A DNA stretch of 47,357 nt, taken from NCBI RefSeq assembly GCF_008124605.1, contig NZ_VRYN01000007.1:1-47357 (forward strand). Direction: 5' to 3'. Position numbers and translations under genes: made by a program. Source of the DNA: Halobacterium salinarum DSM 3754. GTDB lineage: Archaea; Halobacteriota; Halobacteria; Halobacteriales; Halobacteriaceae. The notes under the pieces are model-generated. The model was not told where the DNA came from and ran no database searches. It worked only from the letters and a program-made list of their open reading frames with translations. Positions 34,005 to 37,977 of this stretch are shown in pieces. The stretch's first letter is position 1. Each line of letters starts with the position of its first letter.

Positions 34005-35252
34005 TCACTCGTACTGCGGGTACTGCTCGCAGAGGTCCGCAACGGTGTCGGCGACATCGGCGTACACCGACTCGTCGCCGAGGTTGTCGATGACGCGCGC
34101 GATGCAGTCCGCAACCGTCTCCATCGCGTCGGCGTCGAAGCCACGGGTCGTCAGCGCCGGCGTGCCGATGCGGATCCCGGAGGGGTCGAACGCCGACCGC
34201 GTCTCGTCGGGCACCGTGTTCGCGTTCAGTACGATGCCGACGTCCTCCAGTTCGCCCTCCACGTCCCCGCCGGAGATGTCGGGGTGTGACTCGCGGAGGT
34301 CGACGAGCACCAGATGTGTGTCGGTGCCCCCGGAGACCAGCGAGAAGCCGTGCTCCTGGAGGCGCTCGCCGAGAACGGCGGCGTTCTCCACGACCTGCGC
34401 GGCGTACTCCTCGAACGCCGGGTCGAGCGCCTCGTTGAACCCCACGGCCTTCCCGGCGATGTTGTGCATCAGGGGGCCGCCCTGCGCGCCCGGGAACACC
34501 GCCGAATCGATGTCGTCGGCGAACGCCTCGTCGCACATCACGATCCCGCCGCGGCCCGCCCGGATGGTCTTGTGCGTCGATCCGGTGACGAAATCCGCGA
34601 CGCCGACCGGGGAGGCGTGTTCGCCCGCCGCCACCAGGCCCGTGATGTGCGCGATGTCGGCCATGTGCAGCGCGCCGACGGCGTCGGCGGCCGCCTGGAT
34701 GCGCTCCCACTCGACCTCCCGGGGGTACGCCGAGAACCCGGAGACGATCATGTCCGGCTCGAACGCGTCGGCGTGCTCGCGCAGCGCCTCGTAGTCGAGG
34801 CGCCCCGTCTCGGCGTCGACCTCGTACTGCTCGACCTCGTAGAGCTGGCCCGCGAAGTTCGCGGGGTGGCCGTGGCTCAGGTGGCCGCCGTGGGTGAGAT
34901 CCAGCGAGAGGATCTTGTCGCCGGGCGCAAGCGTGGCGAAGTAGACGCCCATGTTCGCCGACGACCCGCTGTGGGGCTGGACGTTCACGTGATCGGCCCC
35001 GAACAGCTCCTTGGCGCGCGCGACGGCGAGCTCCTCGACGTCGTCGGCGTACTCGCAGCCGCCGTAGTATCGCGACCCCGGATACCCCTCGGCGTACTTG
35101 TTCGTGAGCTCGCTGGATTGGGCTTCCATGACCGCCTCGCTGACGTGGTTCTCGCTGGCGATCATCGCGAGCGTGTCGTTTTGCCGGTGGCGCTCGCCGG
35201 TGAGCGCGTCGGCGACCTCCGGGTCGACCTCCCGAACCTCGTCGTAAGCCAT
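34005..35252 (-). CDS. glyA: Serine hydroxymethyltransferase
   Basis: GlyA converts serine and tetrahydrofolate to glycine and methylene-THF, using pyridoxal phosphate. The 415-residue protein from ATG 35252 contains the PLP-binding lysine in TGSTHKTIRAG (K228), the HSGSSAN loop and EGYPGSRYYGG. Length is standard. It is divergent from the CHAT-like gene at 35366. Confidence 0.96.
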   Translation of the reverse strand: MAYDEVREVDPEVADALTGERHRQNDTLAMIASENHVSEAVMEAQSSELTNKYAEGYPGSRYYGGCEYADDVEELAVARAKELFGADHVNVQPHSGSSANMGVYFATLAPGDKILSLDLTHGGHLSHGHPANFAGQLYEVEQYEVDAETGRLDYEALREHADAFEPDMIVSGFSAYPREVEWERIQAAADAVGALHMADIAHITGLVAAGEHASPVGVADFVTGSTHKTIRAGRGGIVMCDEAFADDIDSAVFPGAQGGPLMHNIAGKAVGFNEALDPAFEEYAAQVVENAAVLGERLQEHGFSLVSGGTDTHLVLVDLRESHPDISGGDVEGELEDVGIVLNANTVPDETRSAFDPSGIRIGTPALTTRGFDADAMETVADCIARVIDNLGDESVYADVADTVADLCEQYPQYE

Positions 35253-35365
35253 ACTCTCAGGGGGTGGCGCACGGGCCATAAGTCTACCGAGCACGCGCGC
35301 ACGCAGTGGCGTCCTGTTTGTGCCACGATAGAAATATATGCGATGGCGTCGAACCGGGCTGGTAC

Positions 35366-37081
35366 GTGACCAAGCGGCAGTCGCCGGGCGGTCGGCGCGT
35401 GACCGAGTCGGCACCCGACACCATCACCGTCCCGCGGTCGATCGCGGGCGTTGCGGCGAGCATCACGCACGCTGGGGCCGCCCACGAGACCATGGGGCCA
35501 GCACGAAGCCTGCAGTCAAACCGGCAGCGACCGCCGGCCATCGCGTTCGGCGACACCTACTCGATTCCCGACGCAGTCGCGAACGCAACCCCAGCGACCG
35601 GTATCGAGGTGCGCCTGCCGTCGTCGCTGCGGTCGGTGTTCGTGACCGCGCCGCTGGCGTTCTACCTCGGCGCGACCGTGACCGTCGCGCCGGACGCCGA
35701 CCCGGTGTTGCGCGCCCCCGACCACGGTGTCGTGTGGCCGCTGGATGACCCGCCGACTGCCGTGCCAGCGGTGCTTTCGCGGGTGTTCTGGCTCGACTGC
35801 CTGGTTCGGGAGGCGACCACTGACGGCCCGAGCGCGACCGAGACGGCGTTGCTGGACGACCTCGATCTGGACCCGGCCCGGCTGGCTGCGGCGTCGCCGG
35901 CCGGCCGGCTCGCCGCGTACCTGGAGACCCCCTTCGAGCGTGTCGCCGACCGGGTTCCGGACTGGCATCTCGGGATGCACGTTGCGCCCACCTACGAGCA
36001 CGCGACGACGCTGCCGTACCTACTGGACCGGCTGGCGTTGGTGTTCCCGCCGGAAACGGCCAGCCTGGAGCGCCAAGAACTCGTTTCGCGGTCGCTGGAT
36101 GACTTCTACCGGGGCGCACCGGGGCCGGTGGCGAGCGTCGAGATGGTCGATCCGGTCGACCGCCCGGGTCGCATGCAGGGGTGGCTGGCCGACGGGATCC
36201 CCGTGGACGCGTTCAAATCACATCCGGCATCGTACCGCAACCACGACGAATACCAGCGCGACGCCGACCGGGACGCGATCTCCGTGGCGGTCGTGCTCAA
36301 CGACCGCGACATGGCCGGCGAGCACGACGCAGTCGCGGACATCTACGAGTCGCGCGCCGGGGACCTCCCGATCGACGTCACGCTCCACGAGCGGCTCACG
36401 CGCACCGAGCTGACAGAGGTGCTCACCACCCACCACGAGTTCGTCCACTACATCGGCCACTGCGCGGTCGACGGGCTGCGGTGTGCCGACGGCCACGTGT
36501 CGGTCGCGGATCTGCCGGCGCTCAACGTCGAGACGTTTTTCCTGAACGCGTGCGGGTCGTTCCACGAGGGACTGGCGCTCGTGGAGGGGGGCAGTGTCGC
36601 CGGTGCGGTCACGCTGCGGAAGGTCCTCGACGCCCAGGCCGCGAAAGTCGGCACGGCGTTCGCCCGGCTGCTGCTGGCTGGGTTCCCGATCGCGTTGGCG
36701 CTCCGACTGGCACGGCGCCGGATCCGCATGGGCAAAGACTACGCCGTGGTCGGGGATGGGACGCAGACGCTTGCGGTGACTGACGACCGCGAGACCGGCG
36801 TTGCACACGTCGACGCGGTCGACGGTGGCGATCAGTACCGGGTGGCGTGGACGGATCACTCCATGGCGAATCACGGCGGCGGCACGCCGGCACCGCTGTT
36901 GGCCGGTGGGAACCGGCGACTCGGCGGCAACCAGGTGACGTTCACCGCGTCCGCAACCGAGTTAGCCAGGACGCTGCCACGGGTGGACGCCCCGGTCGTG
37001 CTCGACGGACAGTTCTACTGGGCCGACGAGGCTGCGGCGGTCGTCCGTCCTGCCCAACAGAATTGCGGGGACTTCGACTGA
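35366..37081 (+). CDS. CHAT-like (caspase-clan) putative protease
   Basis: The 571-residue protein has an N-terminal region (1-270) without a recognised domain and a C-terminal half resembling CHAT/separase-like peptidases. The candidate dyad is H365 in VHYIGHC (the family has a His-Gly motif) and C396 in FFLNACGS (family LSACxT). The following GAVTLRKVLDAQAAKVGTAF and the LALRLARRRI helix match the conserved end of the fold. A TATA-like AAATATATG at 35331-35339 precedes GTG 35366 by about 30 bases, which sets the start. No signal peptide or membrane segment is seen. Function unknown. Confidence 0.7.
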   Translation: MTKRQSPGGRRVTESAPDTITVPRSIAGVAASITHAGAAHETMGPARSLQSNRQRPPAIAFGDTYSIPDAVANATPATGIEVRLPSSLRSVFVTAPLAFYLGATVTVAPDADPVLRAPDHGVVWPLDDPPTAVPAVLSRVFWLDCLVREATTDGPSATETALLDDLDLDPARLAAASPAGRLAAYLETPFERVADRVPDWHLGMHVAPTYEHATTLPYLLDRLALVFPPETASLERQELVSRSLDDFYRGAPGPVASVEMVDPVDRPGRMQGWLADGIPVDAFKSHPASYRNHDEYQRDADRDAISVAVVLNDRDMAGEHDAVADIYESRAGDLPIDVTLHERLTRTELTEVLTTHHEFVHYIGHCAVDGLRCADGHVSVADLPALNVETFFLNACGSFHEGLALVEGGSVAGAVTLRKVLDAQAAKVGTAFARLLLAGFPIALALRLARRRIRMGKDYAVVGDGTQTLAVTDDRETGVAHVDAVDGGDQYRVAWTDHSMANHGGGTPAPLLAGGNRRLGGNQVTFTASATELARTLPRVDAPVVLDGQFYWADEAAAVVRPAQQNCGDFD

Positions 37082-37158: not shown

Positions 37159-37977
37159 ATGACAGCAAATCTTCTTGGTACAACTGTCGCCGACACCCTG
37201 GAGGGAGTGTTCGGTGACGACCCCGACGAGCTCTACGTCGTGGATCCGAGCCGTCACGCCGTCGAGGCGCTCGTCGAGGCCGCAAACGACTACGACACCC
37301 CACTGCCGACGCTGCGCGTACTCGCCGACGAACGGACGCTCAAAGACGTCATGGACGACTTCATCGTGGCGAGCACCGCCGCGAACCTCGTCGAAGACGG
37401 GTCGCTGGCGCTTCGCACGGTCGACGTCGAGAACCGATCGCCGATGCTCGTCACCGAGGAGCGCGCCATCGCGTTGCTCGAAACCGGGCGCTTCGTTGGC
37501 GGGCTGGCCACCGACGACGACGATCTCGCCGAGACGGCGTACGATGCCGCAAACACCGACTGGGCGGCCGCCGACGAGTTCGCGCTCCGCACGCCCGCGA
37601 TCGACCGCGTCCGCGAGACGCTGGGCGACGACATCAACGCCGATGTCGGCGACGACTTCGACGACGTGCTCGCGTCGCTTGAGACGGCGCGCGGCGACGG
37701 CGAGGGCCTGGACGAGGTCACGATCAGCCTGCTGGTCGCCGCGAAGAACCGCGAGCTCCTCTACGACATCAGCAAGTGGGGCGAGGACGTGGGGATCGCG
37801 TCGAAGGCAACGTTCTCGCGGACGAAGACCAAACTCGAGGATCTCGGCCTGGTCGACACCGAGAAAGTCCCGATCGACGTCGGGCGACCCCGGCTGCGGC
37901 TGAAGCTCGCCGACGACCGCCTCGAAGACGCGCCGGCCCCCGAGTTCGCGAACGTCGCGGAGTCGATGCTGGCGTAA
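37159..37977 (+). CDS. tbsP: TbsP-like transcriptional regulator (DUF5821)
   Basis: The 272-residue protein resembles the haloarchaeal DUF5821 regulator described as TbsP in Haloferax, where it acts with TrmB on gluconeogenic gene expression. The C-terminal third carries a winged helix (SLLVAAKNRELLYDISKWGE, then GIASKATFSRTKTKLEDLGL). The N-terminal part has a Rossmann-like sensor look. The upstream AT-rich AAAATTAAATAG (37121-37132) provides a strong TATA and a short leader. It follows the CHAT-like gene by 77 bp. Confidence 0.75.
   Translation: MTANLLGTTVADTLEGVFGDDPDELYVVDPSRHAVEALVEAANDYDTPLPTLRVLADERTLKDVMDDFIVASTAANLVEDGSLALRTVDVENRSPMLVTEERAIALLETGRFVGGLATDDDDLAETAYDAANTDWAAADEFALRTPAIDRVRETLGDDINADVGDDFDDVLASLETARGDGEGLDEVTISLLVAAKNRELLYDISKWGEDVGIASKATFSRTKTKLEDLGLVDTEKVPIDVGRPRLRLKLADDRLEDAPAPEFANVAESMLA

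Follow-up and report, generated by a model that had tools for sequence, protein, structure and literature searches.

The window, that is, the whole 47,357-nucleotide stretch of DNA analysed here, encodes a predicted CHAT-type cysteine endopeptidase of clan CD with a His365/Cys396 dyad, one clade of whose family is fixed beside TbsP, which regulates central metabolism and cell development. We infer that this protein is a signal-controlled regulatory protease, in which the N-terminal half gates the catalytic domain and for which TbsP, or a protein acting on TbsP, is the likeliest partner or substrate, and we assign this reading a probability of about 0.5. If true, caspase-type regulated proteolysis feeding into transcription would add a new layer to gene control in archaea. 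The gene and its predicted promoter are placed as follows.

35366-37081, + strand: short-form gene for a predicted CHAT-family cysteine protease (571 aa; starts with GTG)
35327-35339, + strand: TATA-like promoter element gatagaaatatat, 26 nt 5' of the GTG start

An earlier reading of the sequence alone had given this open reading frame, its length of 571 residues and the numbering of H365 (in YIGHC) and C396 (in LNACGS), all of which proved exact. Comparison of upstream regions makes the GTG start at 35366 well supported, with gatagaaatatat lying before it and recurring before the start codons of the Halobacterium and Halospeciosus orthologues (L050, L051, L052). Because the spacing is also nearly equal in these orthologues, the element suggests that the transcript is leaderless. 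Full-length orthologues are about 690-720 aa and carry an additional N-terminal domain, of about 130 residues, which the three closest relatives of the window protein have lost, as has the window protein itself (35366-35500 in the window), with the promoter and start codon still in place.

The remainder of the protein divides into a catalytic domain followed by a smaller C-terminal domain, and an N-terminal half that we consider separately below.

36278-36760, + strand: caspase-fold (CHAT) catalytic domain, residues 305-465 (Pfam, AlphaFold2 model and Foldseek)
36458-36460, + strand: codon of the predicted catalytic His365 (HYIGHC), invariant in 55 orthologues and kept or lost with Cys396
36551-36553, + strand: codon of the predicted catalytic Cys396 (FFLNACGS), invariant in 55 orthologues and kept or lost with His365
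36797-37045, + strand: C-terminal mostly-beta domain, residues 478-560 (DSSP of the model)

The Pfam CHAT family (PF12770) matches residues 317-459 with an E-value of 2.9e-6 and 27.4 bits, above the gathering score of 24, and is the sole Pfam match of the protein at E<=10; the relatives tested, unlike the window protein, score below this cut-off. NCBIfam gave no match, and searching the PDB by sequence gave no solved relatives. In an AlphaFold2 model built on an alignment of 55 sequences (pLDDT 85.7, pTM 0.87), the C-terminal part follows the strand and helix order of caspases, with H365 directly after the strand at 357-363 and C396 directly after that at 388-394, as in caspases. The arrangement that defines CHAT proteins, a His after strand 3 and a Cys after strand 4, is thus present by topology of the model. 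The sequence-only reading stood to fail on a fold that was not caspase-like; Foldseek against the PDB matched the model to SAVED-CHAT (8tl0), separase (5fby, 5fc2), gingipain (1cvr) and Craspase (7zoq), with many caspases lower down the list. Judging from the pTM of 0.87 and these matches, the predicted structure has the caspase-hemoglobinase fold.

Conservation of the two residues is consistent with a catalytic role. Both H365 and C396 are invariant across the 55 aligned orthologues, which places the pair far beyond chance and, together with the Pfam match, upholds the CHAT assignment and the His-Cys order proposed from the letters; the original observation of a CHAT-like protein with a His-Cys pair is confirmed. 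Among 55 further family members, 33 keep both residues and 22 have lost both, with no case of one being kept alone, and such joint keeping and loss is the pattern expected of a catalytic dyad. On a tree built from the columns of the N-terminal half the dyad must change state four times, and well-supported branches make three of these changes unavoidable; the sequences thus suggest about four independent losses, joint every time, which are too few events for a formal test. Two Methanocella-like proteins have Gln in place of the first His of HYIGH and still possess GH and the Cys, evidence that the predicted catalytic His is H365 rather than H361.

These observations bear on two alternatives to proteolysis. 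The caspase fold might have a signalling or scaffold role that involves no proteolysis, with the dyad retained for ligand binding, as the persistence of a large dyad-less clade, sometimes beside a TbsP paralogue, could be taken to indicate, but a dyad that is invariant in 55/55 aligned orthologues and never half-lost is what catalysis predicts, and we consider this alternative unlikely. It is scarcely credible that the fold instead performs other thiol chemistry. Clan CD does include such enzymes, some legumains acting as transpeptidases or ligases, but no companion amine substrate was seen, and neither activity has, to our knowledge, been reported for a CHAT protein. Cleavage of protein by the His365/Cys396 dyad would remain the preferred activity.

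The N-terminal half was modelled on its own.

35405-36259, + strand: N-terminal domain, residues 14-298 (confident AlphaFold2 model; no PDB or BFVD match; proposed sensor or input domain)

Residues 14-298 gave a pLDDT of 85.5; as far as about residue 220 of the fragment, the majority of blocks exceeded 90. The sequence-only reading had left this half without an assignment, and ours agrees, as searches of Pfam and NCBIfam were without a match and Foldseek found none for the model in either the PDB (best E 0.39) or BFVD. A separase-like pseudo-caspase was considered for this region and set aside, since the half modelled alone matches neither database and therefore holds no recognisable separase-type pseudo-protease domain. 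Based on Foldseek comparison with the PDB and BFVD, the N-terminal half may represent a new fold, and it may serve as a new input domain. Members that have lost the dyad also retain this half, and in some of them similarity to the window protein is confined to it. An RSYPTLRGHPP-like motif is conserved in the N-terminal half of most members, among them many without the dyad; in the window (35504-35536, residues 47-57) it is partly eroded to RSLQSNRQRPP.

Two neighbours of the gene mark its locus.

37159-37977, + strand: tbsP, transcriptional regulator (PF19138 and PF23336; NCBIfam TbsP equivalog, 373 bits)
34005-35252, - strand: glyA, divergent neighbour (conserved at 76/80 loci; a locus marker and not a proposed functional partner)

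Neighbours were counted at 80 named loci found with the window protein as query. Besides glyA, the CHAT gene is accompanied by tbsP at 76 of the 80, by folD at 64 and by ycaO at 33, with glyA usually divergent and tbsP downstream on the same strand, so that the order glyA / CHAT / tbsP is near-constant across many genera. In the window, tbsP lies directly downstream after a gap of 77 bp. The sequence-only reading had named both TbsP and YcaO as partners to look at; synteny speaks for TbsP, and YcaO was dropped, ycaO being near the CHAT gene at only 33/80 loci. It was also correct in seeing no typical effector or TPR partner adjacent, as there is no TPR match and the conserved neighbours are glyA, folD and tbsP. 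TbsP regulates central carbon metabolism, controls gapII together with TrmB and affects motility and biofilm formation (PMC13286277), and a proteolytic input at this point would therefore be plausible for the TbsP-linked clade.

The same locus also admits the possibility, which we hold to be real if doubtful, of an active regulatory protease that is independent of TbsP, its true substrate lying elsewhere and glyA-CHAT-tbsP being an old frozen arrangement. In nearly all loci the gap between CHAT gene and tbsP is 90-530 bp, and a search for conserved open reading frames, aimed at a hidden small gene, found nothing convincing in it; with such a gap and no conserved gene inside it the two genes are probably not one operon, and tbsP probably has its own promoter. 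Core tbsP occurs in 114/116 haloarchaeal genomes, some of which carry no CHAT member at all, and TbsP can thus do without the CHAT protein. Gene adjacency can, moreover, persist without interaction, and the majority of CHAT paralogues have no TbsP homologue beside them. What speaks against independence is that synteny holds at 76/80 loci in many genera, and that paralogues of TbsP show a pairing of their own with paralogues of the CHAT protein.

That pairing recurs in several backgrounds. In a Halobacterium-genus genome (L177), a second CHAT paralogue overlaps the DUF7504 gene upstream of it, with a TbsP paralogue 1.6 kb away, and in four Halorubrum-type genomes (L166, L186, L187, L188) a TbsP paralogue lies near a dyad-less CHAT paralogue. 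DUF7504 (PF24336) proteins, some fused to HalOD1 (halobacterial output domain), are encoded directly upstream of paralogues in several families (L168, L177, L193, L195, L196 and L198-L216, all 15 Haloferax genomes included). In genome G054, a DUF7504 gene is directly upstream of 5/7 non-core CHAT genes, compared with a background of about 15 DUF7504 loci in 3.9 Mb. Gene order makes DUF7504 and its CHAT paralogue a probable two-gene module. Histidine kinases, recognised from their sequences, are encoded 2 and 110 bp upstream of two further CHAT paralogues, and HTH regulators lie downstream of a Halorubrum CHAT paralogue. The theme shared by these contexts, as read from the predicted neighbours, is signal transduction and transcription. 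A common ancestry of TbsP and DUF7504, which would have given the family a shared partner domain, was rejected, with profile comparison returning a probability of 0.1%.

Other features of the paralogues were noted in passing. A large, well-supported dyad-less clade and scattered further members (L136, L160, L165, L166, L178-L189, L191, L197) retain the N-terminal domain, and by their sequences the dyad-less members are conserved pseudo-proteases. At all five of the loci L165, L166, L186, L187 and L188, the dyad-less Halorubrum-type paralogue lies 56-143 bp from a divergent gene of about 350 aa whose product resembles, by eye, an aminoglycoside-phosphotransferase-like kinase. In Halobacterium-genus genomes, two or three full-length CHAT paralogues stand in tandem with spacers of 75-77 bp (L132:4818-11809, L133:5264-9434).

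We hypothesize that, in the preferred reading as a signal-controlled regulatory protease, the N-terminal domain, which in most species follows a further domain, gates the caspase-fold domain, probably in response to a ligand or partner that it senses, and that the activated protease would cleave one or a few proteins, leading to altered gene expression. The absence of that further domain from the window species and three relatives counts against this reading. In the TbsP-linked clade, TbsP or a protein acting on it would be the likeliest partner or substrate, while paralogous clades may serve other modules, including DUF7504/HalOD1 proteins, histidine kinases and other HTH regulators. Precedents for such a regulatory role exist: the CHAT protease Csx29 cleaves Csx30 and so relieves inhibition of a sigma factor (PMC10028731), and the active site of HetF, a putative CHAT protease, is required for heterocyst development (PMC8406250).

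The family is present in 103/116 near-complete haloarchaeal genomes, often as several paralogues per genome, and in the wider phylum positives were found in haloarchaea and one other family (f25) only, two genomes of which we take to be Methanocella paludicola and M. arvoryzae. The distant members in Methanocella-like genomes (L158-L161) have an intact dyad in 3/4 cases and a conserved neighbourhood unrelated to tbsP. Copies also occur on plasmids; most are annotated 'hypothetical protein', with one each labelled 'caspase family protein' and 'CHAT domain-containing protein'. An open-access literature search found nothing on CHAT proteins in haloarchaea or Haloferax, nor on DUF7504.

Several observations argue against a cell-suicide or defence protease of the Craspase or SAVED-CHAT kind, which would cleave its targets after a danger signal. 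SAVED-CHAT and Craspase are among the closest folds, and CHAT domains serve defence elsewhere, but a PADLOC search with four family members gave 0 matches to models of known anti-phage defence systems, and no members were found in phage records or IMG/VR. The gene also occupies a fixed chromosomal site beside housekeeping genes, and the Haloferax member is universal and single-copy. We therefore regard defence as improbable and favour a regulatory protease, since linkage to transcription and signalling genes is conserved and no defence, phage or viral association was seen, which lends support to the earlier suggestion of an unrecognised regulatory protease. The predicted protease probably serves in signalling, and not in cell suicide or defence.

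Among the genera sampled, g40 was identified as Haloferax, with a plasmid stretch of one member matching Haloferax gibbonsii over 94% at 93% identity; g58 is Haloplanus and g11 probably Halorubrum. All 15 Haloferax genomes carry one family member each, with an intact dyad, and in all 15 a DUF7504 gene lies directly upstream of it. Pfam CHAT detected no family member in either the one Haloferax genome tested or the H. volcanii control genome. Extracts of H. volcanii have been shown to possess strong zVAD-FMK-sensitive hydrolysis of caspase substrates, to which no gene was assigned, and the authors of that work noted the absence of clear caspase homologues from archaeal genomes (PMC3615174), in contrast to the nearly universal haloarchaeal caspase-clan family with an intact dyad described here. 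Like this family, the activity is haloarchaeal; unlike it, the activity has been reported also in archaea beyond the family's range (PMC3615174). The Haloferax CHAT member is thus only a lead as the source of the H. volcanii activity, for which alternatives such as the proteasome exist. We consider decidedly improbable the fuller scenario of a core haloarchaeal caspase-clan family that has a new-fold sensor, cleaves TbsP- or DUF7504-type partners and, through its Haloferax member, gives rise to that activity.

Comparison with known systems places the protein within the CHAT family while setting it apart from each characterized type. Metacaspases and orthocaspases (Peptidase C14) share the caspase clan, but the window protein has no Peptidase_C14 match in Pfam at E<=10. 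Separase is likewise a caspase-clan protease and the second-best fold match; it has a pseudo-protease domain before its active domain, whereas the N-terminal half of the window protein matches neither separase nor any PDB fold, and there is no link to cohesin. With the CHAT proteins Csx29/TPR-CHAT and SAVED-CHAT (PF12770), the window protein shares the caspase fold, the His-then-Cys placement, an above-cut-off score and the best PDB matches. It differs in having neither the TPR region and Cas7-11 partner of TPR-CHAT/Craspase, nor any other CRISPR partner, nor the SAVED sensor of SAVED-CHAT (CBASS/type III), and in possessing an N-x-C-x-S motif and a structurally unmatched N-terminal half. The cyanobacterial HetF, likened here by reported role and not by sequence, resembles the family as a putative CHAT protease with a regulatory rather than a defence role (PMC8406250), and differs in being bacterial and linked to the divisome and heterocyst development. 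More generally, the family described here is a CHAT kind that is archaeal, widely conserved, linked to regulators and equipped with an unmatched putative input domain.
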